A DNA stretch of 64,000 bases from Bolinopsis microptera. Lineage: Eukaryota; Ctenophora; Tentaculata; Lobata; Bolinopsidae. The stretch lies in assembly GCF_026151205.1 (NCBI RefSeq), contig NC_087076.1, forward strand, positions 15,329,419 to 15,393,418, written 5' to 3'. Below the pieces are notes generated by a model that was given only the letters and a program-made list of their open reading frames with translations, searched no databases and was not told where the DNA came from. Position 1 is the first letter of the stretch. Each line of letters begins with the position of its first letter. Below, in pieces: positions 1-42,469 of this stretch. The position numbers and the translations under genes are program-made.

Positions 1-367
1 TTTTTAGGCATAAGTCTTAAGTAGATTGTAACATCTAGACCTTCTTGCTATGTAGCATAATAACACTAATAGGAAAGACAACATTGACAATTTAATTGGC
101 AGCGGGAAATAACTGCTTAGTGGTGTCATTAATTCAGTAAGAACTTCCAAAGACTGAACCCCATACTTTCGAAAGTTTAATGTCATATAGTACCAACACT
201 CATATAATTTTTTCCAATATCGTCCAGCTTCTGCAGCGCATGAGTTTTATGAAACTGATGAAGAGCTTGTAAGAAAACATGGATTTATTATTTTAATAAG
301 TTATTCTGACACTGTTGATTGCATTTGCATGGAAACTCTGAGTTTGAAGAATCGATGTTTTCAATTA
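1..367 (-). mobile_element. LINE A, 5' part (end of a reverse pass)
   Basis: This is the reverse complement of 1505-1875 and continues a reverse pass cut by the window edge. It covers the esterase-like part of LINE A ORF1, including the complement of the GTNDI motif near position 190. The first bases are shared with the ends of the other reverse passes (near 11,724 and 23,495). Confidence 0.8.
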
Positions 368-435
368 TATATATATAATATAGCTATATAATATATATAT
401 CATATGTATATAATATATATATATATATATCTATA
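368..435. repeat. TA-rich microsatellite, one per pass
   Basis: This is an irregular (TA)n/(TATA-A) tract. The same tract recurs at about 1437-1504, 12,098-12,172, 13,190-13,262, 23,866-23,935 and 24,926-24,998, always between the A-turn segment and the LINE A 5' side. Its length differs from pass to pass. It is the practical 5' limit used here for LINE A. Confidence 0.85.
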
Positions 436-1436
436 TTATATTTTAAACTTGACGAAATTTCCCCGGCAACGGGGACATAGAAAGAAAAAACACCGAAAAT
501 CGACCTCAAAATGACCCTCCCCCCCCTGGGTGATGCCAAACCCAGCTCGCAAATGAGTTGAAACCTCGCCATTTTTAGCAGGGTTGAGAAAAAGGATAGG
601 AAAAGCTATAGCATTCATAAGAATTTTGATTAGTGCTTTAGATTTTTTAATAATTAACGACCGGAAGTGAGTTAAAAATCGTTAGAATAATGGCGTTATT
701 TAAGCAAAGGTTTACTGCGCTGTTTGCTGTAGCAACGTTAAAATGCACGTGCGCGAGCAACCACAGATTAACTACGCGCGTTGTAATGGCTTATGCAACG
801 TCATAATTTCAACACTAGCTCACATTTACGCTCACGCTTATGACTCTTATAACATTGTTTGTGATTTGGTATTTTTGAATGCTGTAAAAAGTATCGTTTG
901 GGATCCGAATACTAACAAACTCTGTCGGACATAATGGAATTTATCTAACAATGGCGACAGCGTCTGTTATAAATTCATTCCCCCAAACGATCTTTTTACC
1001 CCTCAAAAAAATCCATCACAAAACAAAGTATAAAGTCATAGCGTGAGCGTAAATGTGAGCTAGTTTGAAAATTATGACTATCAAACAAGCATAACAACGT
1101 CGCGTATGTTAATCCTGTGGGTATCTCGCGCACGTGCCATTTAAACGTTGCTACTCAACACGCAGTAAACCTTTGCTTAAATAACGCCATTATTCTAACG
1201 TTATTTAACCTCACTTCCGACGTTAATTTATAAAAAATCAAAGCCTAAACAAAAATTTCCAGAATGCTATAGCCTAGTCCTAACCCTTTCTACAAACCCT
1301 GCTAAAAATGGCGAGGTTTCCAACTCCATTTGCGAGCTGGTTTGGCATCACCAGAGGTCATTTTGAGGACGATATTCGTGTTTTTTCTTCTATGTCCCCG
1401 TAGCCGGGGAAATTTCGTCAAGTTAAAATATAACAA
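436..1436. other. Arms around turn A, no gene recognised
   Basis: Left and right halves are reverse complements around the spacer at 929-954. The arms hold several short self-complementary motifs (GTTGC-tac-GCAAC and CAACGCGCGTTG types) and a GC-richer stretch near the TA tract. I see no coding frame that holds in all passes. Equivalent segments are 12,173-13,189 and 23,936-24,925. Confidence 0.7.
929..954. other. Turn A spacer, copy 1
   Basis: A short AT-rich spacer (begins ACATAATGG, ends AACAATGG) lies between complementary arm ends CGCTGTCG and CGACAGCG. The same spacer in the same orientation occurs at the other two A turns, so it is a fixed loop of a hairpin. It does not resemble a standard SMRTbell adapter. 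Confidence 0.85.
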
Positions 1437-1629
1437 AGATATATATATATATATATAATATACAATATAATATAATATATGTATATATATATAATATATA
1501 TATAATGAAAACAACGATTCAACCAAACTCAAGAAGTTTCATGCAAAGCAATCAACAGTGTCGAGAATAACTTATAATATTAATAAATCCATGTTTTCCT
1601 TACAAGCCCTCATCAGATTTCATAAAACT

Positions 1630-2036
1630 CAAGCACAGCAGAAGCTGACGATATTGAAAAAAATTATTTGATTTGGTACTAATGACATTAAACATTCTAA
1701 GAATGGGTTCAGATTCCTTAGAAGAACTTTACTGAATTAATTGACACCACTAAAGCAGTTATTTCCGCGCAATTAAAATTGTCCAATTTTTGTCCTTCCA
1801 TTAAAGTTTTTTATATTCCTACATACAAAGAATTTCTAGATTTAACATCTACTTAAAGACTTATGCCTAAAAAAAAATTGCGTTTTCCTAGACTGTTTCT
1901 CAAACTTTTTAACTCGAGACTTATAGATCATGTAATGAACTTCTATACCATCGATTGCTTCATCTCAACATGAGAGGAGTAGTTTACTGTCCACTTGCTT
2001 AAGTTTGTTTTGTAAACGAACACAGTTTTGACAGTT
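1630..2036 (+). CDS. LINE A ORF1, SGNH-esterase-like domain (noisy frame)
   Basis: The translated stretch contains GTNDIKHS (about 1675-1698), then in other passes FPAAIII and LKNNC, and ends with WLHLNMRGVG just before a stop near 2036. A G-x-N-D motif followed by a late D/H-L-N motif is the signature of the SGNH hydrolase (esterase) domain carried by ORF1 of many CR1/L2-clade LINEs, where it may act on lipids or ribonucleoprotein targeting. The catalytic serine block (GDS) should lie upstream, near or before the TA tract, and I cannot see it reliably. The cleanest open stretch of this domain is in forward pass 3 at 25,162-25,449. The frame is interrupted by indels that differ between passes. 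Confidence 0.6.
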
Positions 2037-2779
2037 GTAAATAATCTTCTGGGAATTTAATCTTTGATCTTTTCTTCATTTAATATTTTGATAAGACTTG
2101 CCCCCTAAAAATTAAAACTCAAACAAATCTCTGATTTAATCTTGTCTCAATTTTATCCTCCTAGTCTCAGGTACATTCGTCACTGCCCAATTTTCCATAT
2201 GTTAACAATGAATCGTTTTAGACTTAAAAAGGTCTTTTGCATGCAAAAGGCCTCGTACACAGTCCAGAAATGCACATATACATATCAACACGTTTAACCT
2301 AACAAAATTTACACATTTAATTCTCCATGCACCCCACACATCAACTACAATTACATAATCATAGTGTTTCACTTCAATTCCTCTCATGACTTACCTCTCC
2401 AATTCTCTCTCCACACTAGGTCCATGAACACCGTATCCCCTAGATTCTAATATCATTCTCTCAACTCCTTACAGCCACGTTATCTTATACCATTTCATGC
2501 TTGCTCCACATCAAACTTTTTCTTTGTAAATATCTCCTCATGGTTTATAAGAAATGTACTTCCTTCCTGTATGATGAATAGAGTCAAGTATTCCAGCGCC
2601 TCAGCTCCAGTATCTTTATTCATTCTTTGTTTTCTCTCTTAACTTTCTTTTGATAACTCTTGTTATCCTTCTATGCTTAATCCAGGTCCCAACTCGCCCC
2701 TATCTTATACTCTGACCAAAATTGTCCAAGTTCTGTATCCTTTCAAATAAAAAACCCAAAACTCCTCCCATCCCTACTT

Positions 2780-5605
2780 GATGGTAATAAGATTTTCCGA
2801 ACTCAATCCTTCTAAACATAAGCAGCCTGACATAATAGCCCTAAATGAGACTTGGCTCAAAAAATCTATTTCTACAAACGAAATCTTTCCCTCTTCTCAT
2901 ATGAAATCTTCCGCAATGACCGCACGAGAAAAGACCCAATCCTCAAGAGCCCTAATAACCCTAAAAAGTTTAGGGAAAATGAGGTGGTGTTCTTTTGGCT
3001 GTTCGGTCTGATCTCGATGCCACTACAACCCGACTACCATTATCCTAGGTGCATAAAATGCTTGCCGTTAAAATTGGCTTTTTTCCCTAACAAAAGAATA
3101 ATGTAATCTGTACCTTGTTATAGAGTAGAATCTTTGTTACCTAATCATGATGTCAAAGTTTAGTTATTTCGCAACTAGTTTCCAAAAAAGAATCCCCCTA
3201 AAATCTAGTTTATTGTGATTTTAAATCTTCCCCCATACAACTGCTATCTCATCAGTACGATACCTATTGAGCAATCATCATAGATTCTTTCATGAGTCTT
3301 TCGTCTCTCCCATTGATCACATCACCCACCCATAAAAGTGGTAATTACATAGACAATTCTTCCCATAATTATGATAACACAATCGATAACATGATTCTGA
3401 TGATCCTCATTCCGTGTGCAAATCTGATCATTATTCTGTCACTTTTTCAATTACAAGCACCTTTCCCGCAGAAAACTCCTAAACGTAAAATCTATAATAA
3501 AAGAAAGCAAACTGGAGACATGATTAAACGTGAATATGCTCGATTAATTGCAAGTCCTTAGAATGCCAATATGCCCTTATTCCTCTGGAAGTAGTTTAAA
3601 ACTGCATTATGAATTTAGTGATATACTATTCCTAAATAACTAATTAAATCAGAATTTCAACCCCCGTCGATAGAGAACTTTTTGTCTTCATGCCGAAAAA
3701 GGATAACTCAGATCCTAAATTCAAATTTCTGGTTTCTATTTCTGATGAGTTAAAGTTGTTTACTTAGCCGTAAAGATTTAAGAGGCTTTCATAAGCCAAA
3801 ATAAGAGACAATCTTTTTTCAATAGTGATATCCAGCGCTAATAACTAAGACAGTTTTGGTCACATACACACCGAGTATAAACTAACTCCTGCCGTTATGT
3901 CCTAATTGTGTTAGTTATTCTGGACACTTCGTTCAAACCCAAACCAAGCTGAACTATTCAATCTTTCTTTACAACTCAGTTTTCCGGATCCTTCACTTAT
4001 GACACGAATCTCTATGTCAATGATGTTGATTTTGATATGACTTCGATCATCGGGATTTCGTAGCTTCTTTCAAATATAATTCAAATAAAGCCCAGGACCA
4101 GATGGGCATACACGGAAAATTCTCAAAAATTGTTCCTAGGTTTAGCTTACCTCAACATGCATTTTTCGTGGATCTTACAACACGGCTACATTCCACAAGA
4201 ATGGAAAACTTCAAATGTTTCCCAATATTTAAGAAAGTAAGAAAAGTGAGTTGAAAACATAGACCAATATCCCTTTACTTGTTAGTCATGAAAGTTTTTT
4301 GAGCGCATTGTTAAACGTAAACTGCATTCTTTGACAGTAACCCTTCATGATCCAGGCAGCATGGTTTTCTAAGCACAATCATGCACAACCATATGGATGA
4401 CTTTGTGATAGCCTGCATGTCTCTTAACGAAAACATTATCAATCATGTTGTTATTTTTGATTTTCTAAGCATTTGATTCTGTAAATCATGATATCCTTCA
4501 TCATAAGCAAAAGACCTTATATTAACATGATTGGTACACTTCTCAAATTCTTACCAATTACCTTCAGGCCGTTTACCAAAGATGGTTATTGTAATGAGAA
4601 TATGTCATCTACCCTCTCATTAATTCTGTGTCCACCAGGCCTCTATTCTGGTCCCTTACTTTTGGTATTGTTTATCAATGATATTCCTCTTGGCCCTTTT
4701 CGGATAATACTGAATTGTTTTTGTATCGATGATACAAAAATCGGCGTAAAATACATTCATCTCGGAATTAATACTAATTTACAAATGATATAGACCTATC
4801 TCTCTGACTGGGCACTAAAACAAAATGCATTTCCATCCATCAAAATGTAAAGTGGCTTATTGTTTCAGAAAACATCTTATCTCCTCCATTCGCATCAATC
4901 TTGATGGCTTCCTCTTGTGTATGTAATTTGAAAAAGAACTTGAGTCGATTTACTCCTAATCTAAGTGAATAGTCAGTGCGACAGAATTTATACTAAGCCT
5001 GCCAACAACTGGTATGGTCAGAAGAGATGGCCAAAGTTGTCAGTTGTATCAGAAACGTCGCCGGCGCTTTCCTCCCCTTGTTCGTAGCCATTCGAAAATT
5101 GTTCCATATCTGGCGCCTTTGTTATAAATCACTAGGATAAATAAAAAGTCTCCAAAAGAGAGCTATTTAAATGATTCGTCTGAAGAGGGCCGCAGTTATC
5201 CACCTGAGCAATATTCAAAAATGCTAAGCTTGTGACCAATCTCCCTTTGTCTCAAAAGTTTTACTTGATAGATCTTATTTTTTTTTCCACCAAGTTCTTA
5301 ACAATTTAATTCCTGAATCACTGCCTCAACATCTCTCTTTATATCAGGGCACTTCTCGACAAACGTGCCACCTCGACAGTCGTCTATTGTGTCCATCAAT
5401 TTTACTAAGTTTAATTCAGAATTCACACACCACATGAACCTCAATGGGGGGGAGCCCACTGGCAAACTCAATTTCTACAAACCCATATACTGTGAATGGA
5501 ACTCCCTTTACCGGTAAGACAGATTGTGTCAACTAGTCTTTTCAAAGCTAGTCACTAGCATCTATTGAAATGTTTAATGGATATGAACAACAGTCTAGCC
5601 TAGTC
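2780..5605 (+). CDS. LINE A ORF2, endonuclease and reverse transcriptase (noisy frame)
   Basis: The endonuclease begins with QPDIIALNETWL (about 2822-2858) and continues through IFRNDR. The reverse transcriptase follows from about 4060: KAQGPDG, then a YFDFAKAFDSVNHD-type block, a GVPQGSILGPLL-type block and a YADD-type active site near 4725, best read by comparing passes. A C-terminal LRRCHLDS-type block precedes a stop near 5600. The protein would nick target DNA and copy the LINE RNA in place. The frame is broken repeatedly in this pass by one-base indels, but the same sites are usually unbroken in other passes. Equivalent regions occur in every pass. Confidence 0.7.
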
Positions 5606-6018
5606 TCTTTGCTTCCCCATATTATATTTATTTTTGTTTATTAATTTTTTTATCTACCTTCCTAATCTTTCAACATCATATCACACTTCACGCGCACACC
5701 TTCTCACACATTAAAGACCAATTCAGACCTTGTATTAATTTATCTTGGAATTTGACGTATTGAAATACAAATTTGACTCTATATCCACAGTTATTCCACC
5801 ATGATTTGTTTGGTTATTAAAATAGTTTTTTCAAAATTTTTGATTTAGATTAATTTCGAATGTAATGGTCCAAGTCCTGCGGACATAGTTCACTATGAGT
5901 TTACCGTGTTTGGGTCCCATCAATATTACAGATGGGGCGATAATTTTTGAACGATTCAATTTTTATATTCAACTAATGCTGTACTCTGGTAAAATTAAAA
6001 GTATTAATAAAAAAAATA

Positions 6019-6680
6019 AAATTAACATAAATTAACAAATAAAAACAAAATCAACGACCGAACGAATTGAAACAAAATGAAATACAAAGAACAAAAACTA
6101 AAATAAAAATAAAGAGTTCCTAAAAAGCATTTCTTCGCATAAACTTGTTGTGTCCTACCTTTACTTATGAGTTCCTCCTCCTCTTAATAGATAGGCCATC
6201 TTTATTTAAAATAATATAAAGTTTTTCAGTAAGGCAGAGATTAACAATCTTTCGTACCCCCCTTGTACGGATGACATGTTAGATTATTTTTTCCAAGATA
6301 TTTTTATATGGTTTTGTTTACTTTCAACTCCCATATTTTCTAGATACTCGGTCTATTTCGTATGCGTCTTCGAGTTGAAAGAGCTTGTGTGAACTGAACG
6401 GTCTTAAAAGTGTTTTCAGTAAGCCTCAATATATTTGTGCACTATCTTTTTCATTTTCCACTGCAATATTGATTTCATATAATCACTGCAGCGTCCAGCA
6501 TTGTCCGTTCAGGTGGTCACATTCCGGCTTATTCTGCACTTGCACTTTTTCGATTTAATTGTATTTTCTTTCTAGCTTGGTGTCTTGCTCGCTAATATGA
6601 TCCAACTTGGTAGGCAACTGTATGTAGCTTATATGTGTTTCTGTTGAACTTTGTAAATTGGTGTCCTCTGGGGAAGTGCT
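6019..6680 (-). mobile_element. Penelope-like element, GIY-YIG part, forward pass 1
   Basis: Read on the minus strand, this stretch encodes the C-terminal part of a Penelope-like retroelement protein: a CPLNGQCL cysteine block, then KYIGLTE, then KIWSLKD, then a CLTEK block. That order is the GIY-YIG endonuclease region of Penelope-like elements. The upstream reverse transcriptase is not present because the pass turns back at B. The element lies tail to tail with LINE A. Confidence 0.7.
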
Positions 6681-6821
6681 TTGTCTATAATCGAAAGCTC
6701 TTGCCTATGTTTTGTTATTGTTTACATTTGTAACAGAAGCCTTAAATGTGCCCACTAACGGACAATGCCTGAAGCAGCGTGATATATGAAGCAACGAATT
6801 GCAGTGGAAAAGAAAAGAAAG
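6681..6821. other. Turn B spacer, copy 1
   Basis: The left arm ends at GGGGAAGTGC and the right arm resumes at GCCCTTCCCC. The ~140-nt spacer is not random: about 50 nt continue the antisense Penelope-like sequence, followed by a sense copy of the CPLNGQCL-encoding segment (near 6740), which joins the right arm at a shared GAGCAC/GCACTT microhomology. The same structure is at 18,438-18,576 and 30,215-30,354. Confidence 0.75.
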
Positions 6822-7494
6822 AGCCCTTCCCCAAGGACAACCAATTCACAAAATGTTAACAAAACAAAATAACTATCATACTTGGCCTACCCAACTATGA
6901 TCCATCATAGCGACACCCAAGAAACCCAAAGAAACCAACCAGAAAGAACCTCAACTAAATCGAAACGTCAATTGCAAAAGCCGTAAATGTGCCCCCTGAA
7001 CGGACAATGCCTTGAAGCATCAGTGATATATGAACAACTATTGCAGGTGGAAAATGAAAAGAAAGAACACAAATAAATTGGGCTTACTGAAAACAACTTT
7101 AAGACCCGTTTCAGTTCACACACAACTCTTTTCAACTCGAGAAGCTACAAATCATACGGAGCTATCGTAAGAAAATATGGAGTTTGAAAGATAAACAACC
7201 ACCATATAAAAAACTTGGAAAATAATATTCAAACATGCTCATCCGTACAAGGTGGGTACGAAAGATTGTCCATCCTCTGCCTATACTAAAAACTTTATAT
7301 TATATAAATAAAGATGGCAATCTATTAATAGGAGGAAGGGAACTCATAAGTAAATGTCGGCACAACCAACAATTTATCTAAGAAATGTCTTTTAGAATTT
7401 TAATTTAATTTTATTTTTGTTCTGTTTCATTTTCGTTTCAATTGTTCGTTTTCGTTTCGTTTTGATTTTGTTTTTGATTTAGTTACGTTACTTA
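6822..7494 (+). mobile_element. Penelope-like element, GIY-YIG part, reverse pass 1
   Basis: This is the sense-strand view of the Penelope-like 3' region. It starts with an HFPKDNQF-like stretch, then the cysteine block near 6990, KYIGLTE near 7065-7093, KIWSLKD near 7167-7190 and the block leading to the GGG-rich end near 7340. In this family the domain nicks target DNA. I place the 3' end against the LINE A tail at about 7495. Confidence 0.7.
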
Positions 7495-12097: not shown

Positions 12098-12666
12098 TAT
12101 ATATATAAAAAATATATATATAATATATATATCCTCTATTATATCATATATAAATTATATATATCTACAAATAAATTTTTAAAACTTGACGAAATTTCCT
12201 TCCGCCGGCAACGGGGACAAGAAGAAAAAAAAACCGAAAAAATCGACCTCAAAATGACCCACCGGTGATGCCAAACCCAGCTCGCGAAATGAGTTGAAAC
12301 TCGCCATTTTACTGGTTGTAAAAATGGATAGAATAGGCCTATAGCATTCTTAGTATTTTGATTTAGGCCTTAGATTTTTTATAATTACCGTCGGAAGTGA
12401 GGTTAAAAATCGTTATACTAATGGCGTTTATTTAAGCATAGGTTAAACTGCGCTGTTGCGTAAGCAACGTTAAAATGCACGTGCGCAGCAACCACAGATT
12501 AACAACGCGCGTTGTTTATGCTGTTTGCTACGTCATAATTTCAAAACTAGCTCACCATTTACGCTCACGCTATGCCCCCAAACATCTATAATAACTTAGT
12601 TTGTGATTGGTATTTTGATGCGGTAAAAAGTATCGTTTTGGAAACCGAATACTAACAACGCTGTCG

Positions 12667-12693
12667 ACATAATGGAATTTATCTAACCAATGG
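12667..12693. other. Turn A spacer, copy 2
   Basis: The spacer and flanking CGCTGTCG/CGACAGCG arm ends match turn A copy 1, with one extra base. The perfect part of the stem here extends over the preceding AACAACGCTGTCG region. Confidence 0.85.
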
Positions 12694-13262
12694 CGACAGC
12701 GTTTTGTTAGATTCGGATTCCCAAAACGATACTTTTATACCCGCATCAAAAATAACCAATCAAAAACAAAGTTATAAAAAGTCATAGCCGTGACGTAAAT
12801 GTGAGCTTAGTTTTGAAATTATGACTAGCATACAGCATAACAACGCGGTTGTTAATCTGTGGTTTGCTCGCGCACGTGCAATATTAACGATTGCTACGCA
12901 AGCAGCGCCAGTAAACCTTTGCTTAATTAACGCCATTTTCTAACGATTATTTAACCTCACTTCCGACTTAATTATAAAAAATCTAAAGCCCTAAATCAAA
13001 ATTCTAAGAATGCTATAGCCTATTCCTATCCTTTTTCTACAACCCTGCTAAAAATGGCGAGGTTTCAAACTCCATTTGCGAGCCTGGGTTTTGGCATCAC
13101 CAGAAAAGGGGGGTCATTTTGAGGTCGATTTTCGGTGTTTTTTCTTCTATGTCCCATGCCGGAGAAATTTCGTCAAGTTTAAAATATAAATATAGATATA
13201 TATATTAGATATATATATACATATAAATATAGTCTATAGTATATATATATATATAAATATAA

Positions 13263-16200
13263 GTGAAAACAACGATCTACAAACTCAGAGAATCAGCATA
13301 TGCAATCATCAGTGTCAGAATAACTTTATTAAATTAATAAATCCATGTTTTCCTACAAGCACCTTCATCATTTTCATAAAAACTCATGCAGCTGCAGAAG
13401 CTGACGATATTGAAAAATTATATTAGTGTTGGTACTAATTGACAATAAACATTCTAAGTAAGGGTTCAGATCTTAGGAAGTATCTTACTGATTAATTGAC
13501 ACCACTAGAGCATTATTTCCCGCTGCAATTAATAATTGTCCAATGTTGTCTTCTATTAAAGTGTTATATCCTCCATAGCAAAGAAAGTCTAGATTTTAAC
13601 AATCTACTTAAAGACTTATGCCTAAAGAATAATTGCGTGGTTCCTAGACTGTTTCTCAAACTTTAACTCGAGACATTAGATCATGTAATGAACTTCTAAA
13701 CCATGATTGGCTTCATCTCAACATGAAGTAGTAGGTTACTGTCCACTTGGCTTAAGTTTTGTTGTAAACGAACACAGATTTTTGACAGTTGTAAATAATC
13801 CCTTCTGAATTTAATCTTTGATCTTTTCTTCATTAATATTTGATTAAGAACGTTGCGCCCTAAACTAAAAACTCAAACCAAATCCTGATTTAATCTTTTT
13901 CTCAATTTTAAATGCCTCTATTTCATTTACATTCGTCACTGCCCATTTTCCATATGTTAGACAATGAATCGTTTAGACTTAGTAATAGGTCTTTTTTGCA
14001 TCAAAAGAGCTCGTACACAGTCAAGAAATGCACATATACATATCACACTTTATACCTAACAAAATTTACACATTTTAATTCCTCCATGCACCCACACATC
14101 AACTACCAATTATCAATAATCATGTTTTCTCTTCTAGTCTCTCATCATGACTTACCTTCTCCCAATTCTTCTCTCCACGACTAGTCCTTGAACACTCGTA
14201 TTCCCCTAGATTTCTAATATTCATTCCTCTTCTACTTCCTTGACAGCCCACGTTAATCTTATACCATTTCTTGCTTGCTCCCACATCAAACTTTCCTTTG
14301 TAATTATCTCCTCATGGTTTATAAGAAAAGTACTTCCCTGGTAAGATGAATAGAGTCAAGTATTCCAGCCGCCTCAGCGTCAGTATCTATATTCATCTTT
14401 GGGTTTTCTCTCTTAACTTTCTTGTGATAACTCTTGTTATCCTTCATGCTTAATCCAGGTCCCCAACTCCCCTAAACTATACCTACCAAAATGTCCAAGG
14501 TCATATTCCTCAATAACCTAAGCTCCTCCCATCCCCTTCTGATGTAATAAGATTTCCGAACTCAATCCTTTGCTAACATAGAGCAGCCTTACATAATTGC
14601 CCTTAAATGAGAACTTGGCTCAAAAATCTATTCTAGCAACGAAATCTTTCCTTCTTCTCAATATGAAATCCTTCCGCAATGACCGCCCGAGAAAGACTCA
14701 TCTCAAGATCCTAAATACCCTAAAAAGTTTAGGAAAATGGAGTGGTGATCTTTTGGCAGTTCGGTCCCCTGATATCGATGCCACAACAACCCGACCACCA
14801 GTTAGCCTAGGTGCAAAATGCTTGCCGTTAAAATTGCTTTTCCCTAAACAAAGAGTATTGTAATCTGTACGATGTTATAGATTAGGAACTCTTGGTTACC
14901 TAATCATGATGTCATAGTTAGTTATATTCGCAAGCTAGTTTTCCAAAAGAATCCCCTAAAAAATCTATGTTATAGGTGATTTTAATCTCCCCCATAAACA
15001 GGCTAACCTCATCCAGTACCGTACCAATTGGAGCAATCCTCATAACTCTTTCAGGATCTTTCACATCTCCCAGTTGAACACATCACCCACCCATAAAAGT
15101 GAAATACATTAACCATTCTCTCAGTAATTATGATAACACAATGATAACTTTGAATGTCTGTGATCCCTCATTCCGTGTGGCAAATCTGAACATTTTCCTT
15201 CACTTTTTTCATTAAAAGCTCCTTTTTCCCGCAAGAACACTCCTAATCGTAAATCTATAATTATTAAAGAAAGCAAACTGGGACATGAATTAATCGTGAA
15301 TAATGCTCGATTAAATTGGCAATCCTAGAATTCCTAATCCTGATTCGTCTTGAAGTTAGTTAAAGACTGCATTTATACATTTTAGTTATGATATACATAT
15401 TCCTACAGTAACTTTTAAATCAGAGTTCAACCCCGTGGTTCGAGGAGAAACTTTTTTTCTTCATGCGTAAAAAGGATAGACTCAGATCTAAATTTAAAAT
15501 TTCTGGTTCTAATTCTGATGAGTTAAAGATTGTTACTAGCCGTAAAGAATTAAGTAGCTTTCATCAGCCCAAAATAAGAGACAATCAGTTCAATTATGAT
15601 CCAAGCTTATATCAAAAGTTTTTTGTCACATGTTAATAAAAATCTAACCCTGCCGTAATTCCTATTGTGTTTATGATTCTGACAGCTTCGGTCTAACGGC
15701 CCCCTACCCCTCCCCCCCCCCTACCATAAGCTCAAGCTGAACTTTTCAATTCTTTCTTTATAACCATTTTCGGATCCTTCAACTTTATGACACTGATAGC
15801 TCCTATTCAATGATGTTGATTTTGATAGGACTTCATAATCGGAGTTCGTAAGCTTCTTTCAAATATTAATTCAAAAAAAGCCCAGGAACCAGATGGCATA
15901 CACGTAAGAATTCTCAAAAATTGTTCCGTAGGTTTAGCTTACCCTCTACTGCATTTTTCGTGGAATCTTACAACAGCGGCTACATTCACAAAATGGGAAA
16001 CTTTGCAAATGTTGTCCCAATATTAAGAAAGGTAAGAAAAGTGAGGTTGAAACTAAGACCAATATCCATTACTTGTTTATCATGAAAGTTTTTGAGCGCA
16101 TTGTTAAACGTAAACTGCTTCTTTGACAATACCCTTCATGATCCCAGCAATGTTTTCTAGAGCACAAGTCCCATGCACAACCAATATGGTACTTTTGTGA

Positions 16201-17800
16201 TAGCCCTCATTGTCCTCTTAACGAAAACATTATCATCAGTTGTTATTTTGATTTTGCAAAGCATTTGATACTGGAAATCATGATATCCTTTCATAAGCTA
16301 AAACCTTATAAACAGTGAGGGTACACTTCACAAAATTCTTACCATACCTTCAAGGCGTTACCAAAGAGTGGGTTATTGGTAATGAGTGTCATCTACCCTC
16401 TCATGAATTCCGGTGTCCCCATGGCTCTATTCATGTCCCCATACTTTTACTGGTTTATCAATGATATCCGTCTTGCCTTTCGGATAATACTGATATTGTT
16501 TTGTATGCCGAATATACAAAAATCTGGCGTACAATACATTCACTTCTATAATACAAATTACAATGGATATAGACTATCCTCTACTGGGCACTAGAAACAA
16601 AATGCATTCCATCCAGCAAAATGTAAAGTCTTATTGTTTCAGAAAACCATCTTTATCTCTCCATTCGCAATAACAATCTAGATCTCTCCTCTTGTGAATG
16701 TAGAGGTGTAGAAAAAAGACTTGGAGTCGATTTTACACCTAAGCTAATTGAATAGTCATGCGACAGAATTTAAAACTAAGGCCTGCCAACAACTTGGTAT
16801 GGCAAAGAGGCCATATTTGTCATTGATCAGAATCTCGCGGCGCTTACCTCTCCCTGGTTCGTGCCAATTCGTAAAATTGGTTCCATAATCTGCGCCCTGG
16901 TAATAAAATCACTTTTTTATTTTAAAAAGTTGGGGGAAAAAATTAAAAGTCTCCTAAAGTGAGCTATTAAATGGATTCTGTCTGAAGAGGGCGCAGTTAT
17001 CCACCTGAGCAATATGTCAAAAAAAGTGCAACGTGTCGACCATTCTCCCTTTGTCTCAAAAGTTTTGACTTGAATATTCTTATTTTTTTTCCACAAAGTT
17101 CTTAACAATCTAATCCTGTATCACTGCCTCACTAACTCTCTTTATATTCAAAGGCACTTCTCGACAACGTTTGCCACCTCGACAGTCTGTCTATTGGGTC
17201 ATCATTTTACCTAATTAAGTCAGAATTCACCACCACATGTACCTCAAATAGCCCACAGCAAAGATCATTTTTCTACAGAACCCATATACTGTGGAATGAC
17301 TCCCTTTACAGGTAAAACAGATGTGTCTACTAGTCTTTTTCAAAGCTAGGTCACTAAGCATCTATGAAAGTTAATGTTATGAAACAACATCTACCTAGTC
17401 TCTTTGCTCCCCATATTATTATAAATTTTGTTTTATTATTTTTTATCTACCCTCCTATACTTTCAACATCATATCACACTTCACCCCACACCTTCCCACA
17501 CATTAATGACCATTTTCAGACCTGTATCTAATGTACTTAAATTTACGTATTGAAATACAAAGTTGACTCATACCACATTATTCACCATGGATTTGTGTTA
17601 TTAAATAGTTTTTTCATAAATTTTTGATTTAGATAATTCGATGTAATGGTCCAAGTTAACTGCTGACATATTCACTATGTGTTTACCGTGTTTGGGTGCC
17701 CACCTATTTTTACAGAGTGGGGCGATTTTTGAACGATTCTATTGTTATATTCATCTATGCTGGTACTCTGTAAAATTGAAAGTAATTAATAAAAAAATAA
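13263..17800 (+). mobile_element. LINE A, forward pass 2
   Basis: This is the same element and order as at 1505-6018: esterase-like ORF1 at about 13,390-13,785, endonuclease from about 14,570, reverse transcriptase at about 15,880-17,390, and a 3' tail TTAATAAAAAAAT near 17,785. A C-rich burst at about 15,698-15,722 has no counterpart in other passes and looks like a read error. Confidence 0.8.
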
Positions 17801-18437
17801 AATTAACTTACTAACTAAATCAAAAACAAAATCAAACGAACGAAACGAAATTGAAACGAAAATGAAATACAGAACAATAACTAAAATTTAAAATAAAATT
17901 CCTAAAAGCATTTCTCAGCATAAACTTGTTTGGTGCCTACTTACTTATGAGTCCCTCCCCTATTTAATAATTGCCATCTTTATTTAAAATAATATAAAAG
18001 TTTTTCATAAGCAGAGATTGCAATCATTCGCCCCCCCTTGTACGAATGAGCATTTTGATTATTTTCAAGAGATTTTATAGTTTTGTTTATCTTTCAACTC
18101 CCATATTTTCTTAGATACTCCGTCGGATTCGACTTCTCGAGTTTGAAGAGAGCTTGTTTGTGAAACTGAAAACGGTCTTAAAAGTTTTTCATAAGCCCAA
18201 TATAGTTGTGCTCTACTTTTTCATTTTCCACTGCAATATTGCTTCATATACACTGCTTGCTTCCACATTTGTCCTGCAGCTCAGGTCCGCTTGCGCAATT
18301 GCACGATATCATTTAATGTAGTTCCTTTCTGAGCTGTGTCTGGTGCTCGCTAAATGGATCCTACTTTTCGGTAGGCAACTTATGATAGATTAATTGGTTC
18401 TGTTGAACATTTTGTAATTGTTCCTCTGGGAAGTGAT
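17801..18437 (-). mobile_element. Penelope-like element, GIY-YIG part, forward pass 2
   Basis: Antisense copy of the Penelope-like 3' region, matching 6019-6680 base for base apart from scattered indels. It ends at turn B copy 2. Confidence 0.7.
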
Positions 18438-18576
18438 TGTTCTAGTATCGAGAACTCTTGCCTATGTTAGTTGTTACTTTGCTAAAGCCGAAATGTGCCC
18501 ACTGAAAAACGGCAATGCCGAAATCTGCAGTGATATATATAAGCAACTATTGCAGTGGAAAATTAAAAGAAATGAA
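18438..18576. other. Turn B spacer, copy 2
   Basis: Same build as at 6681-6821: an antisense Penelope-like continuation, then a sense copy of the CPLNGQCL-encoding segment, then a join into the reverse arm at GCACTTCCCC. Confidence 0.75.
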
Positions 18577-19221
18577 GCACTTCCCCAAGGACAACCAATT
18601 TCACAAAATTCAACAAAACACAATTAAGCTATCATACAGTTTGACTACCCAACGTAGATCCATCTTAGCGAGCACCAGACACCAACTCAGAAAAACCTAC
18701 AATAAAATCGAAAACGGCAATTGCAGAAAGCCGAAAAGTCCCACTGAACGGACAATGCGGAACACAGTGATAAATGAAGCAACAATTTGCATGAAAATGA
18801 AAAGAACGAAGCACAAATATATAAGGCTTACTGAAAACACTTTAAAGACCCGTTTCATTCACACACAAGCGCTTTCAACTCGAAAGCTACGAAATCAACG
18901 AGCTTCTAAGAAAATATGGAGTTGAAAGATAACAAACACCATATAAAATATCTTGAAAATAACCAAACATCTCAACCGGTACAAGAGGGGACGAAAGATT
19001 GTCATCTCTGCCTTACTGAAAAACTTAATTTATTTTAAATGAAAGATGGCAATCTATTAATAGGAGGAGAAATCTAAGTAAATGTAGCACACCAACAAGT
19101 TTATGCTGAAGAAATGCGTTTGAGGAATTTTAATTAATTTTAGTTTTGTTCTTGTATTGCATTTTCTTTCAATTCGTTTCGTTTCGTTGATATTTGTTTT
19201 TATTTAGTTAAGTAAGTTAAT
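18577..19221 (+). mobile_element. Penelope-like element, GIY-YIG part, reverse pass 2
   Basis: Sense copy with the longest readable stretch of this domain in the window (roughly 18,700-18,925), showing RLTENTLKTRF in place of the GLTENTLKTRF expected from other passes, then LRNQ and SKKIWS. It is bounded by turn B on the left and by the LINE A tail on the right. Confidence 0.7.
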
Positions 19222-20981
19222 TTTATTTATTTATTAAATACTTTTCAAATTACAGATTACAGCAATAGATTAATATAAAATAGTATCGTTCAAAATATCG
19301 CCCCCATCTGTAAAATATGATGGCACCCAAACACGTAAACACATAGTGAACTATTCCGCGTAACTTGGACCATACATCGAATAAATCTAAATCCAAAAAT
19401 TATGAAAAAAACTATATAATAACAAACAAATCCAAGGTGAATTAACTGTGCAAAATGATATAGAGTCAAAATTTGTATTTCAATACGTCAAATTATCCAT
19501 ATCATTAGATACAGGTCTGACATGGTCATTACTGTGTGAGAAGGTGTGCGTTGAAGTTGAATGAAGTAGAAATATAGGAAGGTATATAAATAAATTAATA
19601 AAACAAAATAATAATAATATGGGGAGCCAAGAGACAAGCTAGACTGTAGTTCACTATCCAATAAACATTCCATAGATGCTAGTGACCTCAGCATTGAAAA
19701 GACTAGTAGACACATCGTCTTACCAGTAAAGGGAGTCCATTCCACAATAATATGGGTCTGTAGAAAAAAAAGAATGCAGTGGGCTATTCGAGGTACATTA
19801 GTGGGGTGTGTGGATTCTGACTTAACTAGTAAAATTGATGACACAACAGACAGACTGTCGAGGTGCAACGACCCTAGTCGAGAAGTGCCTGAATATAAAG
19901 AGATAGATGAGGCAGTGATACAGGAAGTAAAATTGTAAAAACTTTGTGAAAAAAAATAAGATCATTCAAGTCAAACATTTTGAGACAAAGGAGAATGTCG
20001 ACAAGCTTGCACTTTTTGACATATGCTCCAGGTGGGATAACTGCGGCCCTCTTCAGACAAATCCATTTAATAGCTTTCTCTTTTGAGACTTTCTAAATTA
20101 ACACAAAGTTGATATATTACAAGGGCCGCCAGATATGGACATTTATCGAATTGCCTACGAACCAGGGAGAGGTAAGCGCCGGCGACGTTCTGATCAATGA
20201 CAATAATCCATCCTTCTTCCCTGACCTACCAATTGTTTGGCAGGCCTTATTATAAATTCTGTCCGCACTGACTATTTCCAACTAGCTTAGGAGTAACATC
20301 ACCCTCCAAGACTTTTCTAACTCTACATCCACAGAGAGGAAGCCATCAAGATTGATGCGAATGGAGGAGATACAATGGTTTCCTGAAACAATAAGCACTT
20401 AAACATTTTGCAGGATGAACGCTTTTTTGTTTCTTAGTGCCCCCCAGTCAGAGAGATAGTCTAATAATCCATTTGTAAATAGATTATCAGAAGATGAATG
20501 TATTTAACCAGATTTTTTTGTATCATCGGCAACAAAACAAGAGTCAGTATTATCAGCAAGGCCAGAGAGGAATAACAATTGGATAAACAATACAAAAAGT
20601 AAGGGACCCCAAGAATAGAGCCTGGGGGACAACAAATTAACTGAGAGGGTAGATGACATCTCATTACCAATACCCCTCCTTTGTAACGCCTTGAAGTAAT
20701 TGGTAAGAAATTGGAAATGTAACCATCAATTTATATAAGGTCTTTAGCTTATGAAGAAGGATATCAAGATTTAAGAATCAATGCCTTAGCAAAATCAAAA
20801 TACACAACATGAATTGAAAATGTTTTTTCGTTAAAACAATGCAGGCTATCACAAAAAGTCAACCAATATTGGTTTGTGCATGACTTGTGCTCTAGAAAAC
20901 CCCTGCGCCTGGGGGGGGGGGACAGATGGGGGGTCATAGGGGCCATAGAGGGGGGGGATGGAGGGGGATACTCGGGGGGGT

Positions 20982-21013
<32 letters not shown>

Positions 21014-23865: not shown

Positions 23866-24418
23866 TATCTATTATAAATATATAACTATATATACATAAC
23901 AATAAAAAAATATAAATATAAATGCTATATAAAAATATTAAACTTGACTAACAATTCCCCGCAACGGGGAACATAGAAAAAAAACCCGAAAAACGACCTC
24001 AAAATGCCCCTCTGGTGAAGCCAAACCCAGCACGCACATGGATTGAAACCTCGCCATTATTAGCCGGTTGTAGAAAACAGGATAAGGAATAGGCTATAGC
24101 ATTCTGAATTTTGATTTAGGCTTAGATTATTTATAATTAACTTACGAAGTTGAGGTTAAAATCATCCGTTAGAATAAAGGCGTTATTTACGCAAAGGTTT
24201 TCTGCGCGTATGCTAGCAACGTTAAAAGCACGTGCGGCGGCAACCACAGATTAAACAACGAGCGCGTTGTTATGCAGTATAGGCTACGTCAAAATATTCA
24301 AAACTAGCACACATTTACGCTCACGCTATGACTTCTTATAACTTTTGGTTTGTGATTGTTTTTTGATAGCGGAAAAAAGAAACGTATTTGGGAATCCGAA
24401 TACTAACAATCTCTTGTC

Positions 24419-24447
24419 GACATAAAAGAATCTATCTAACAATGGGC
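24419..24447. other. Turn A spacer, copy 3
   Basis: Same spacer and arm ends as at 929-954, in the same orientation, with small differences (AAAAGAATC for the usual AATGGAATT). Confidence 0.85.
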
Positions 24448-24998
24448 GACAGCGTTGTAAGTATTCGGATCCCAAAACGAAACTTTTTACCGCAACAAAA
24501 ATACCAATCACAAACAAAGTTATAAAGAAGTCATAGCGTGAGCGTAAAAGTGAGCTAGTTTTGAAATTATTGACCGTAGCATACAGCATAACAACGCGCG
24601 TGTTAATCTGTGTGCCGCGCACGAGCATTTTAACGTTGCTACGCAACATCGCAGTAAACCATTGCTAAAATAACGCCAATATTCTAACGATTATATAACC
24701 CACACTCCGACGTTAATTAATAAAAAAATCTAAAGCCTAAATCAAAATTCTAAGAGATCTATTATCCTAATCCCTATCCTATTCTACAACCTGCTAAAAA
24801 TGGCTAGGTTTTCAACTCCATTTGCGACTGGGTTTGGCATCACGCATAGGGTACAATGTTGAGGTCGCTTCGGTTTTTTTTCTTCCTATGGCCCCCGTTG
24901 CCGGGGAAATTTCGTCAAGTTTAAAAAAATATATAGATATTTATAATATATATATAAATACAAATATATATAATATAAATATATAATATATATATATA

Positions 24999-27900
24999 AT
25001 GAAAACAACGATTCTACAACTCAGATATTCATGCAAATGCAATCATCAGTGATCAGAATAACATATAAAATAATAAACCAGTTTTTCCTTACAAGCTTCC
25101 TCATCATTTTCATAAAACTCATGCAGCGCAGAAGCTGACGATATTGAAAAAATTATATTGAGTGTTGGTACTAATGACAGTAAAACATTCTAAGTATGGG
25201 GTACAGTTCCTAGGAAGTATCTTACTGAATTATGACACCACTAAGCATTATTTCCCAGCTGCAATTATAATTGACCAATGTTGTCTTCCTATTAAGTGTT
25301 TATATGCCCTACATACACAGAATGTTCATAGTATTTTAACATATCTACGTAAAGAGCTTAGGCCTAAAAATAATTGCGTGCTCCTAACTGTTTCCCTCAA
25401 ACATTTTAACTCGAGACTTAGATCATGTAATGTACTTCTATACCAATGATTGGCTTCATCTCAACATGAGAGAGTAGGTTTTACTGTCCACTTGGCTTAA
25501 GTTTTGTTTGTAAACGAACACATTTTGACAGGTGTAAATAATCTTCTGGATTTAAACATTGATCTGTTCTTTTCATTTACTAATTTGATTAAGACGTTGC
25601 CCTAAAATAAAACTCAAACAATCTCTGATTTTAATCTTTTCTCATTTTATGCCCTCCTATTTCAGGACATTCGGTCACGCCCATTTTTCCATATGTTAGA
25701 CAATGAATCGTATTAGACTAGAATATGTCTTTTTTGCATGCAAAAGGCTCGTACCCAGTCCAAGAAATGCACATAAACATATCAACACCGTTTTATACCC
25801 AACAAAATTTACACATTTAATTCTCCATGCACCCACACATCAACTACAATTATCATAATCAATATGTTTCTCTTCTATTCTCTCATCATGACTTACCTTT
25901 CTCCCAAATTCTTCTCTCACGACTAGGTTCCCATAACACCGTATTCCCCCCTAGATTCTAATATTCATGCCTCTCTACTCCTTGACAGCCCACGTTATTC
26001 TTATACAATATCTTCTTGCTCCCACATCAATCTTTTCTTTGTTAATTAATCTCCTCAAGGTTTATAAGAAATGTTCTGTCTCACCAGTTAAGATAATAAG
26101 TCAAGATTCCCGCCGCCTCAGGCGTCTAGTATCTTCATTCTTCTTGGGTTTTCTCTCTTAACTTTCTTTGAAACTCTTGTTAATTCCCTTCTATGCTTAA
26201 ACCATCCAACTCCCATCTATACAATACCAAAATGTCACAATGGTCTTATTCCTTTTCAGTAACCAAGCTCCTCCCATCCCTTCTTGATGGTTATAAGATT
26301 TCCGAACTTACATCCTTTGCTAACATAGAGCAGCCTGACATAATTGCCCTAATGAGATTGGCTCAAAAAATCTATTTCTACAAACGAAACTATCCTCTTC
26401 TCAATATGAAATCTTCCGCAATGACGCACGAGAAAGACTCATCCTCATGATCTAATAACCCCCCTAAAAAGGTTTAGGGAAAATGGAGGGTGTTCTTTTT
26501 GCTGTATCGGTCTGATCTCGATGCCACTACCAACCCACTACCAGTTTAGCCTAGGTGGCAGAAATGCTTGCTTAAAATTGCTTTCCTAACAAAGAGAGTA
26601 TTTGTAATTCTGTACATGTTATAGAGTAGAACTCTGGGTTACCAAATCATATTCAACAGTAGTTTTTTTATATTCGCAAGCAGTTTTCCAAAAGAAGCCC
26701 CCGTAAAATCTATGTTCTTGGTGATTTTAATCTCCCCCATACAGACTCTATCTTCATCCATACCGTAACTATTGAGCAATCCTTCATAGATTCTTTCAGT
26801 GATCTTTCCTCTCCCTATGATCACAACACCCACCCTAAAAGTGGTTATAATTAGACATTCTTCTCAGTAATTATATAACAAATCGATAACTAAATTGTCT
26901 GTGATCCTCATTCCGTGTTCAAAATCTGATCATTTCCTGTCACTTTTTCAATTAAAGCTCCATTTCCCGCAAGAAAACTCCTAACGTAAAATCTATAATT
27001 ATAAGAAAGCAACTGGACATTATTAATCGTGAATTATGCCGTTTAATAGGCAATCCTAGAATGCCTAGATCCTGATTCGTCCTTTGTAGTTAGTTAAGAC
27101 GCAAAAAAAAAAATTTTTTTTCAAAAAAAAATGAAATTAGTTGAATATACATATACCTAAAGTTAACTATTCAATCAGAGTTTCAACCCCCGTGGTTCGA
27201 TAGTGAACTTTTTCTTCATGCCGTAAAAAGGATAGACTCAATACGAATTTAAAACTTTCGTTCAAATTCTGCGATTAAAGTTTGTTACTAGCCGAAAGAT
27301 TTTAAGATGCTATCATCACCAAAAATAAGAGACAATCATTTCAATAGTGATGAAGCAGCGCTAATAACTAATAAGATTTGTCACATGTTAATAAAAATCT
27401 AACTCCTGCCGTATTCCTAAATTGTGTTTAGTTATCTGACAGCTTCGGTTCAAACCCAACTCAAGCTGAACTTTTCATATTCTTTCTTTATAACCAGTTT
27501 CAGGAATCCCTTCACATTATGACACAGATTATCTCCCTATGTCCAATGATGTTGAGTTTGATATTGACTTCGATCATTCGATGTTCGAAGCTTTTTTATC
27601 GTACAAATATTAATTCAAATAAAGCCAGGACCATATGGCATACACGGTAAAGATCTCAAAAATTGTCCGTATGTATTAGCTTACCCTCTAACATGCATTT
27701 TCGTGATCTTACAACAGCGGCTACATCCACAAGACTGGAAACTTGCAATGTTGTCCAATATTAGAAAGTAAGAAAAGTGAGTTGAAAACTTATAGACCAA
27801 TATCCTTACTTGTTTTTTAGTCATGAAAGTTTTTGACGCATTTTTAAACTAACTGCTTTCTTTGACAAACCCTTCCTTGATCCCAGGCAGCATGGTTTGT

Positions 27901-29541
27901 CTAAGCACAAGTCATGCACAACCAATATGGTTGACTTTTGAGATAGCCAGGCAATGTCCTCTTAACGAAACATTATCAATCAAGTTGTTATTTTGAATTG
28001 GCTAAGGCATTTGATTCTGTAATCATGATATCCTTCTCAAATCTAAAGACCTATATAACATTATGTACAACTTCTCAATTCTTACCAATACCTTCAAGGC
28101 CGTTACCAAAGAGTGTTATGTGGTAATGAATGTCCATCTACCCTCTCAGTTAATTCTGGTGACCCCAGGCACTATGCCTTGGACCCTTTCCTTTTGTATT
28201 GTTTATCAAATGATATTCCTCTTTGCCTTTCGGATAAATACTATATTGTTTGGTATGCCGATATACAAAAAATCTGCGTAAAATACATTCATCTTCGATA
28301 ATACAAATTTACAAATGGATCTAGACTATCTCACAGACTGCACTAAGAAACAAAATGCGATATCATCCAGCAAAATGTAAAGTGCTTATTGTTTCAGGAA
28401 AACCATCTTTATCTCCTCATTCGCATACAATCTTGAATGGCTACTCCTCTTGTGTAGTATAGTTAGAAAAAGATCTTGAGTCGATGTTACTCCGTAAAGC
28501 TAAGTGGAATAGTCAGTGCGACATGAATTTATACTAAGCCTGCCAACAACTTGTCGTGGACCAGAATGGCCATATTGTCATGATCAAAACGTCGCCGGCG
28601 CATTACTCACCCAGTCGTAGCCAATACGAAAATTTTCCATAATCTGTGCGCCCTGTGTAAAAAATCACTTAGTGATAAATTAGAAAGTCTCCAAAAGAGA
28701 GCTATTAAATGGATTCTGTCTGAAGAGGGGGCCGCATTTATCCCACCTGAGCAATTATGACAAAAAGATGCAAGCTTGTCGACATTCTCCTTTGTCTCAA
28801 AAGTTTGACTTGACTATCATATTTTTTTCCCACAAAGTTTCTAACAATTTCATTCCTTAATCACTCCTCACTAACTCTCTATATCAGCACTTCTCGACTA
28901 AGACGTTGCCACCTCGACAGTCTGCTATGTGTCATCCAATTTTAACTAAGTTAAATCAAATTCACACACCACATTTACCCTCAAATAGCCCTCAGGCAAA
29001 TCATTTTTCTACAGAACATAACTGTGGAATGGACTCCTTACAGTAAGACAGATGTGGTCTACTATCTTTCAAAGGCTGAGGTCACTAAGCATCTATTGGA
29101 AATGTTTATTGGATAGTGGAAACACAGTCTAGTCCTAGTCTCTTCTCCCCAATTATTATATTTTGTTTTATTAATTTTTTTATCTACCTTCCTATCATTC
29201 AACATCAATATCACACTTCACCCGCACACCTTCTCACACATTAATGACCATTTCAAGACCAGAATCTAATGTATCTGAATTTGACCTATTGAAATACAAC
29301 TTTTGACTCTATATCACATATATCCCCATGGAATTGTTGTTATTAAATAGTTTTTCATAAATTTTGATTTAATTAATTCGATGTAATAGTCCAAAATATA
29401 CTGCGGACATAGTCACCTATGTGTTTACCGTGTTTGGTGCCCATCAATATTTTACAGATGGGCGAATTTTGACGATTCTATTTTATATTCATCTATTGCG
29501 TACTCTTAAAAATTGGAAAAGTCATTAATAAAAAAAAAAAA
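24999..29541 (+). mobile_element. LINE A, forward pass 3
   Basis: Same element: esterase-like ORF1 at about 25,110-25,530 (best open stretch 25,162-25,449, with FPAAIII and CLPIK), endonuclease from about 26,290, reverse transcriptase at about 27,600-29,130, 3' tail near 29,527-29,541. An A/T burst at about 27,103-27,131 is private to this pass. Confidence 0.8.
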
Positions 29542-30214
29542 TCTAACTTAACTTAACTAAATCAAAAACAAAATCAAACGAAACGAAACGAATTTGAAAA
29601 CGAAAATGAAAAACAAGAACAAAAACTAAAATTAACATAAAATTCCTAAAAGCATTCTTCAGCCTAAACTGTTGGTGTTCACGAGAGATAACTAGATAGA
29701 GTTCCCTCCTCCTATTTAAATAATTGGCCATCATTTATTTAAAATAATATAGAAGTTTTTTCAGTAAGCAGAGATTGACAATCTTCGTACCCCCCTTGTA
29801 CGGATAGCATGTTGATATTTCCAAGATATTTATATGGTTGTTTGTTATCTTTCAACTCCATATTTCTTTCTTAATAGCTCCGTCTGAATTTCAAGCTTCT
29901 CGAATTGCAAAGCTTGTGTTGATCTGAAACGGGTCTTAAAATGTTTTTCAGTAAGCCCAATATTTATTGTTGTTCTCTTTCTTTTCATGTTTCCACTGCA
30001 ATAGTTGCTCCATATCTCACTGCTGCTTCCAGCATAGTTCCGTTCAGTGGGCACATTTCCGCTTCTGCAATTGCACTTTTCGATTTAATTGTAGGTTCTT
30101 TCTGAAGCTTGGGTCTGGTGCTCGCTAAGAGGGATTCCTCGTGTTGGGTAGGCAACTGTAATAGCTTAATTGTTCGTTAACATTTTGTGAAATTGTGTCC
30201 TCTGGGGAAGTGCT
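29542..30214 (-). mobile_element. Penelope-like element, GIY-YIG part, forward pass 3
   Basis: Antisense copy of the Penelope-like 3' region. The minus strand shows GLTEKHFKTRF and LRKKYGV fragments of the GIY-YIG block near 29,850-29,970. It ends at turn B copy 3. Confidence 0.7.
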
Positions 30215-30354
30215 TGTCTAGTACTCGGAGGAAGCGACTTGCCATGTTTGTTTGTTACATTTTCAGAACCAGAACATGTGCCCACTGAACGGACAATGCC
30301 TGGAAACAGCAGTGATATATGAAAGCAACTATTGAGTGAAAATGAAAACAAAAG
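30215..30354. other. Turn B spacer, copy 3
   Basis: Third instance of the B spacer with the same antisense-then-sense Penelope-like content and the same join into the reverse arm. Confidence 0.75.
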
Positions 30355-31042
30355 TGCACTCCCCAGAGACACAATTTTCACAAACAAATGTTCAACAGAA
30401 ACACAATTAAGTTATCAAACAGTTGCCTACCCAACGTAGGATCCTACATCTTAGCGAGCACCAGACACACAAGCTCAGAAAGAACCACGACTTAAATCGA
30501 AAACCTGCAATTGCAGAAAGGCGGAAATGTGCCCACTGAACGGACAATGCCTGGACGCAGCAGTGATATATTAAGCAACTTATTGCAGGGAAAATGAAAA
30601 GAAAGAGCACAAATATAATTGGTCTTACTGAAAACACTTTAAAGACCCGTTTCAGTTCACACACAAGCTCTTACAAACTCTAGAACTACGAAATCAGAAC
30701 GAGCTATCTAAGAAAATATGGCGTTGAAAGATAAACAAAACACCATATAAAATATCTTGGAAAATAATCAAACATTCTCATCCGTAACAAGGGGGTACAA
30801 AGATTGTCATCTCTGCTTACTGAAAACTTTATATTATTTTAAATAAAGATTAGGCAATCTATTAAATAGGAGGAGAATCATAAGTAAATGAGGCCCCCCC
30901 CCCCCCAACACCAACAAGTTTATGCTGAAGAAATCTTTTTAGGAATTTTTATTTAATTTTAGTTTTTGTTCTTGTATTACAATTTCGTTTCAATTCGTTT
31001 CGTTCGTTTTGATTTTTTGATTTTGATTTAGTTAATTAATTT
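30355..31042 (+). mobile_element. Penelope-like element, GIY-YIG part, reverse pass 3
   Basis: Sense copy of the Penelope-like 3' region, with the cysteine block near 30,525-30,550 and the KYIG/GLTE region near 30,610-30,640. A 14-base C run near 30,895-30,908 is private to this pass. Confidence 0.7.
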
Positions 31043-31560
31043 AATTTTTATTTTTTTCTTAAATACTTTTCAAATTTACAGAGTACAGCAATAGATGAAT
31101 ATAAAAAGAATCGTCAAAATAACGCCCCCATCTGATAAATATGATGGGCACCCAAACACGGTAAACACATAGTGGAACTATGTCCGCAGTAACTTGACCG
31201 CATTACAAATCGAATAATCAAATCCAAAAATGTAATGAAAAACTATTTAATAACAACAAATCCATGGTGAATAACTGTGGAAATAGAGTCAAAATTTGTA
31301 TTTCAATACGTCAAATTCCAGATACATTAATACAGGTCTGAAATGGTCATTAATGTGTGCGAGAGTGTGCGGTGACGTGTGATAGGATGTTTGAAAGTAT
31401 AGGAAGTAGATAAAAAAAATTAATACAACAAAAATAAACAATAATTTGGGGACAAAGATACTAGGCTAACTGTTGTTTCACTATCCAATAAACATTTCCA
31501 TACATCTTATGACCTCACATTGAAAAGATTATAGACACAATCTGTCTTACCTGTAAAGGG
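31043..31560 (-). mobile_element. LINE A 3' part, truncated reverse pass 3
   Basis: The pass runs from the LINE A tail into the C-terminal reverse-transcriptase region and stops abruptly after CTTACCTGTAAAGGG, where all other passes continue with AGTCCATTCC. The sequence after 31,560 belongs to a different LINE A copy in the opposite orientation, so this is a junction, probably made by the assembly. Confidence 0.75.

Positions 31561-33820: not shown

Positions 33821-33823
<3 letters not shown>

Positions 33824-33879
<56 letters not shown>
33824..33879. repeat. Poly(T), the 3' tail of LINE D
   Basis: An uninterrupted T run directly follows TTCGA of LINE A. As the complement of a poly(A) tail it sets LINE D on the minus strand. 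A homopolymer of this length is also a likely place for sequencing-length error. Confidence 0.85.
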
Positions 33880-33880
<1 letters not shown>

Positions 33881-42430: not shown

Positions 42431-42469
42431 CGGGTACAGGAAGAACTCCGTTTGGCTGGCATGATCACC

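Follow-up and report, generated by a model that had tools for sequence, protein, structure and literature searches.

Layout of the array

The stretch of DNA analysed here, referred to as the window, comprises 64,000 nucleotides of the genome assembly of the ctenophore Bolinopsis microptera (GCF_026151205.1, contig NC_087076.1, here C5, positions 15,329,419 to 15,393,418). Self-comparison showed that positions 1-31,560 are filled by alternating copies of one 5.8-kb arm, joined by two types of turn that we call A and B. Long inverted and direct matches between arms, at about 81-84% identity, run over the whole of this stretch, and gaps usually outnumber mismatches between arms (754 gaps versus 487 mismatches in the longest match). 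The pattern is confirmed as lying far beyond chance. A first-pass annotation, made from the letters of the window alone, had described a 5.8-kb sequence read forward and backward in alternation across 31 kb; this holds, and the array is larger than was claimed.

The 5.8-kb arms continue past the left edge of the window, were mapped throughout the 60 kb to its left save for a stretch of 5,000 N, and occupy more than 113 kb of C5 when that N stretch is included. Searches of the genome (264.65 Mb, 232 contigs) with turn B and with the join between two arm components, X and Y (see below), placed array positions from C5:15247435 to C5:15359884 among the matches listed. C5:15241851-15242450 had no match to the arm, so the array starts after that stretch. 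The right end given in the earlier annotation, window position 31,560 (C5:15360978), is thus kept, whereas its start at position 1 is not, since the array reaches left at least to C5:15247435. The proposed period of 11.74 kb is reproduced by the mean spacing of the B turns listed on C5, which is 11,742 nt by simple arithmetic (n = 10).

Composition of the arm

Starting from turn A, each arm consists of about 540 nt of a repeat (X), a piece of a second repeat (Y), a long interspersed nuclear element (LINE) of about 4.4 kb, the rest of Y, and turn B. In arm 3 repeat X lies at 12,661-13,200 (+ strand), and alignments to the 40 copies listed elsewhere begin only at about 12,661. The LINE lies at 13,368-17,796 (+ strand), inserted in repeat Y; a polished copy has an ORF1 (first open reading frame, ORF) with a GDSL-type domain and a second frame whose first 400 residues include an exo/endonuclease domain. 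At one locus (L016) the two Y pieces adjoin without the LINE, in the manner of an empty site. The remainder of repeat Y lies at 17,797-18,480 on the - strand, its direction being judged from an open frame in another locus, L014. Y reads weakly like a Penelope-like element, as had been suggested for the sequence at one of the turn spacers; its match to GIY-YIG scores 17.9 bits, under the Pfam cut-off of 22.6, so that this part of the annotation is retained as a weakly supported assignment.

Polished Y copies also occur as inverted pairs in their own right (L014 4078-6528 and L015 3652-7304, with arms of 1,069 nt and 1,673 nt at 99.9% identity). At a further locus (L040, C3:6887300-6892000) the X copies are flanked by long arrays repeating in 10-bp steps.

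The two turns

Turn A has a loop of about 26 nt and occurs three times in the window, at 929-954, 12,667-12,693 and 24,420-24,446 (all + strand, with centres near 937, 12,661 and 24,433). The three copies share one loop orientation, with forward and reverse scores of 110/62, 120/78 and 103/63, and four further scored copies on C5 have the same orientation. A common spacer of about 26 nt in one orientation, as first proposed, is therefore borne out by the scores. Native X reads CTGTAGACATAATGG...AATGGCGACAGCG in four of the six copies read, CAACAG replacing CGACAG in the other two; the array strand folds back at this point, with CGCTGTCG ahead of ACATAATGG, read errors aside. In locus L037 the native CTGTAG/CGACAG pair is an inverted repeat of 38 bp in total, with 5 of 6 bp matching and a 26-nt spacer. 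Could the turn be a natural palindrome of X? This is ruled out: all 40 listed X copies that reach the right end of the query begin at turn A (best 40 of 512 candidates), and the six copies read, in four loci, run straight through it.

Turn B is a compound fold-back. With its flanks it lies at 6,641-6,917 (centre near 6,757), at 18,400-18,680 (centre near 18,494; the query of the turn-B search) and at 30,179-30,466 (centre near 30,300). The turn is in + orientation in all three window copies and in 10/10 among the C5 matches listed. Its loop comes to about 145 nt when reconstructed from one polished copy (L014), in agreement with the common spacer of about 140 nt in one orientation that had been described. 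Past turn B native Y continues as ACATTTGAGCTG, and the native run of TTACATTTG directly into AGCTG, both seen in the seven copies read, is replaced in the array by a jump to the opposite strand. The first inverted pair at the turn is a 3-bp CAA/TTG, 196 nt apart, and a second switch follows. On our reading the strand would have jumped to the CAA 196 nt away through a TTG microhomology, copied about 97 nt, and jumped back across AGCAC. A natural palindrome is ruled out here as well: the 19 listed Y copies (among the best 40 of 44 candidates) all match turn B only in pieces, and the seven copies read continue natively. The inverted Y pairs of L014 and L015 fold at points other than turn B. Both turns thus look, from their letters, like template-switch junctions rather than natural palindromes.

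The loops themselves are genomic, matching native X and Y copies as had been claimed for both spacers, and are joined at fixed bases. A search of the six window turns with adapter letters gave no adapter-length match, and one 12-nt match at chance level (E = 9) in one turn B region. An ordinary SMRTbell read in which the adapters of both ends were missed is accordingly a very improbable source of the array, even though a passage of PMC6218980 lists missed adapters among the causes of palindromic PacBio reads; the earlier judgement that they explain the array poorly on their own stands.

Error signature of the array

A polished LINE copy (L030) served as the reference for errors in the arms. 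In an otherwise polished assembly, all 17 array segments were only 88.8-90.9% identical to it, with 2.5-4.0% mismatches, 3.0-4.8% deletions and 2.5-4.5% insertions in every one. In a pile-up of the arms, 70% or more agreed on a state differing from L030 at only 3 of 3,551 positions. No subset of arms was set apart by a clear variant; among orientation-linked substitutions the strongest was 0/8 versus 4/7 (p 0.026 before any correction). All arms are one sequence, each with about 10% read error, and the pile-up rules out an alternative in which they are repeats some 18% diverged, with divergence set by age.

The errors also have a direction. Arms in + orientation have lost 483 G and 111 C in sum, and those in - orientation 446 C and 49 G, and the array was therefore sequenced in a single strand sense. 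In both arm orientations the substitution met most often, taken in the read sense, is T>A, and the rate of shared errors is 0.073 for pairs of arms in the same orientation (n = 55) versus 0.032 for opposite pairs (n = 63). Single arms are broken up by bursts of one base, C-rich at 15,701-15,723 and G-rich over about 115 nt at 20,899-21,013, at which the match to other arms is lost. Which platform produced such a read? A nanopore read was at first favoured on the balanced error rates, and was later considered less likely since the errors recur little and transitions make up only 239 of 1,629 substitutions; this judgement leans on general traits of the platforms.

Identical letters elsewhere in the assembly

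Verbatim reuse of array sequence was checked at three other places and found at two. C9:7649715-7650914 equals C5:15306483-15307682 at 1,200 of 1,200 letters, and C5:9559425-9560424 equals C5:15270929-15271928 at 1,000 of 1,000, errors included in both cases; among the arms listed for each piece, the five that come next are only 80-82% alike. The third place lies on C7; no exact copy of it occurs in the array stretch compared, and it represents a different pass. It has the same turn A, errors of its own and the strand sense of the array, which indicates either another pass of the same read or a pass of a like molecule.

The turn-B search extends this picture. A joined turn B was present in 21 of the best 40 of 44 candidates, 10 of them in the array and 11 elsewhere (one on C1, three on C5 near 9.55 Mb, two each on C7, C9 and C13, and one on C11). 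Eight of the 11 outside turns score the same as an array turn, and the B turns on C13, C9 and C5 near 9.55 Mb are spaced as in the array. In the X-Y search the join was nearly whole in 37 rows among the best 40 of 488, 18 in the array and 19 elsewhere; two X-Y rows, a nearly whole one and a partial one, were disregarded as they correspond to a stretch reading N beside the window. Twelve of the 19 outside joins pair by score with an array row, four each on C13, C9 and C5 near 9.55 Mb. Where places were compared by score alone, equal scores suggest, but do not prove, letter identity. The places with joined turns or arm joins are C1:26059269, C5:9542417-9566139, C7:13894249-13912661, C9:7649715-7668130, C11:17867055-17873805 and C13:16101353-16119852.

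The right edge and its flank

At 31,560/31,561 the array meets sequence read in the opposite strand sense. In two LINE parts to the right of this join the deletions are mainly of C (40 C versus 6 G, and 36 C versus 5 G), and this opposite deletion sense places the join between two reads. A LINE 5' end lies only a few bases from the join. From 31,566 to 47,878 (+ strand) the window repeats C5:15225386-15241860 as a partly raw second copy whose order and orientation are unchanged; identity between the two is 80% at 31,566-33,822, 89% at 33,900-38,884, 87% at 41,300-43,290, 96% at 43,284-47,036 and 91% at 47,115-47,878. This 16-kb segment is the poorer of the two copies, possibly an unpurged haplotype or an assembly duplicate. 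A direct joining of C5:15241860 to window position 47,878 was considered and withdrawn: 600 nt starting near the first copy's end, at about C5:15241860, gave no match in the window, and other sequence lies there.

Homopolymers are inflated at window positions 31,561-33,822, where mismatch to the LINE is 10.7%; this differs from the error profile of the array, and the stretch adjoins a run of 57 T at 33,823. Farther right, at 49,797-54,866, lie Copia-like polyprotein frames of 658, 706 and 140 aa in clean sequence (ORFs judged by eye).

Origin of the array

What is directly seen is sequence with raw errors, one sequence underlying all arms, a strand sense that stays constant, two other places with verbatim copies, and native sequence running through both turns. 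We conclude with high confidence that the array is the pasted raw read of a fold-back molecule and not a chromosomal array, and we consider it likely that the source molecule of the read was closed. Positions 1-31,560 (+ strand) would then be part of a raw, single-pass long-read stretch circling a 5.8-kb dumbbell, with a start on C5 between 15242451 and 15247435 and an end at 15360978. The molecule would be one closed, self-complementary single strand, forming a duplex of 5.8 kb capped by hairpins at A and B. End A may have arisen by polymerase fold-back across the imperfect inverted repeat CTGTAG...CGACAG with its 26-nt spacer, and end B by two template switches, at TTG (inverted) and then at AGCAC. 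A sequencing polymerase would have circled this dumbbell about ten times over the C5 stretch in a PacBio-type read, which software would have failed to divide into passes because its turns carry no adapter. Circling of one closed dumbbell accounts for fixed loops, fixed loop orientation, a single strand sense and the lack of arm variants. Of the three origins that the first-pass annotation had put forward, a closed dumbbell-like molecule read round and round therefore fits best, with its fixed loops and one strand sense; a copied amplification fold-back is possible as the origin of the dumbbell itself.

The published pipeline offers a route into the assembly. PMC10232365 states, for its species together, that PacBio continuous long-read (CLR) and high-fidelity (HiFi) libraries were run on Sequel II, and its main text lists wtdbg2, TGS-GapCloser 1.1.1, Purge Haplotigs, Pilon and HiRise scaffolding for B. 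microptera. From the use of wtdbg2 and the error profile we infer that its library was CLR. According to a passage of PMC7476103, one long read may yield TGS-GapCloser candidates for several gaps. Gap closing would thus have pasted pieces of the uncorrected read at several places, the gap closer being the presumed agent.

Several points weigh against this account. Exactly 5,000 N interrupt the array left of the window, with its phase kept across them. In a short segment at 20,155 errors are shared near equally with arms of its own and of the other orientation (0.059 versus 0.054). The X-Y rows on C7 (four) and C11 (two) pair with no listed C5 pass and could come from other reads, and a single unfolded source copy of the X-Y join was not found among the best 40 of 488 candidates. 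The error mix is poorer in insertions than what we take to be usual for PacBio CLR, and a nanopore read of a linear concatemer, though less likely, is compatible with the error rates alone. Finally, a dumbbell without adapters would need some way of being primed, for which nicking or mispriming in the 145-nt loop can only be guessed at.

Our estimates for the alternatives that concern the nature or origin of the molecule overlap with that for the dumbbell read. A real chromosomal tandem array, in which 5.8-kb inverted arms span some 113-118 kb and escaped polishing for want of uniquely placed reads, would explain why turns and period are fixed over ten listed units, and gap closers are indeed meant to bridge gaps with long reads (so a passage of PMC7476103). 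It is nevertheless scarcely credible: letter-identical pieces, errors included, recur at two other places in an assembly that was gap-closed with long reads, the array has one strand sense throughout and adjoins sequence in the opposite sense, the 16 kb on its right repeat sequence on its left, and no arm-specific variants were seen. The tandem array of the earlier annotation is therefore rejected, and with it the novelty of the array as a feature of the genome, which is nil. A linear concatemer, made by rolling circle in vivo or by whole-genome amplification, read once end to end and then pasted, is unlikely. Long reads with palindromes, up to 15 of them in some reads, do result from whole-genome amplification (a passage of PMC6218980), and microhomology junctions would suit a strand-displacing polymerase, but a single pass of more than 113 kb would be needed, the main text of PMC10232365 has no words beginning 'amplif' and no 'low input', and self-primed doubling should, by our reasoning, flip the loops alternately, yet their orientation is fixed.

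Compatible with the dumbbell read, though quite unlikely, is an origin in the animal, in which hairpin-capped extrachromosomal DNA formed as in origin-dependent inverted-repeat amplification (ODIRA) and one read of it was caught and pasted. The interrupted inverted repeat joined at turn A is 38 bp long, close to the 40-80 bp over-represented at yeast ODIRA junctions (as given in a passage of PMC10766183), and both ends appear closed by template switches; but such junctions could also arise in vitro, turn B is a compound structure whose first inverted pair lies 196 nt apart, and no molecule of opposite strand sense was seen in the one stretch tested outside the array and its copies (on C7). It is equally doubtful that a ctenophore carries 5.8-kb hairpin-capped extrachromosomal DNA with nested retroelements, made by ODIRA-like template switching during replication at both ends; the array would still be an assembly error. 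If a dumbbell did form in cells, an animal's hairpin-capped intermediate would have been glimpsed directly in this read.

In studies of this assembly the false insert of more than 113 kb, with its pieces elsewhere, mimics giant palindromes, repeat arrays and false duplications. The artefact is easily tested for: alternating arms of one sequence, about 10% error in each, a constant strand sense and verbatim copies elsewhere.

Relation to known systems

Three known systems resemble parts of this account. The palindromic reads after whole-genome amplification handled by Pacasus (in passages of PMC6218980) likewise contain many alternating inverted passes per read, but the main text of PMC10232365 gives no sign of amplification and both turns here are the same in the passes looked at. 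TGS-GapCloser, as described in passages of PMC7476103, replaces a gap with a long-read segment, and may draw on one read for candidates at several gaps; in our case the inserted piece exceeds 113 kb, is self-folded, and is uncorrected although the tool offers correction. The ODIRA dogbone (passages of PMC10766183) is, like the dumbbell proposed here, a closed self-complementary strand with ends at short interrupted inverted repeats; turn B differs in being compound and wider.

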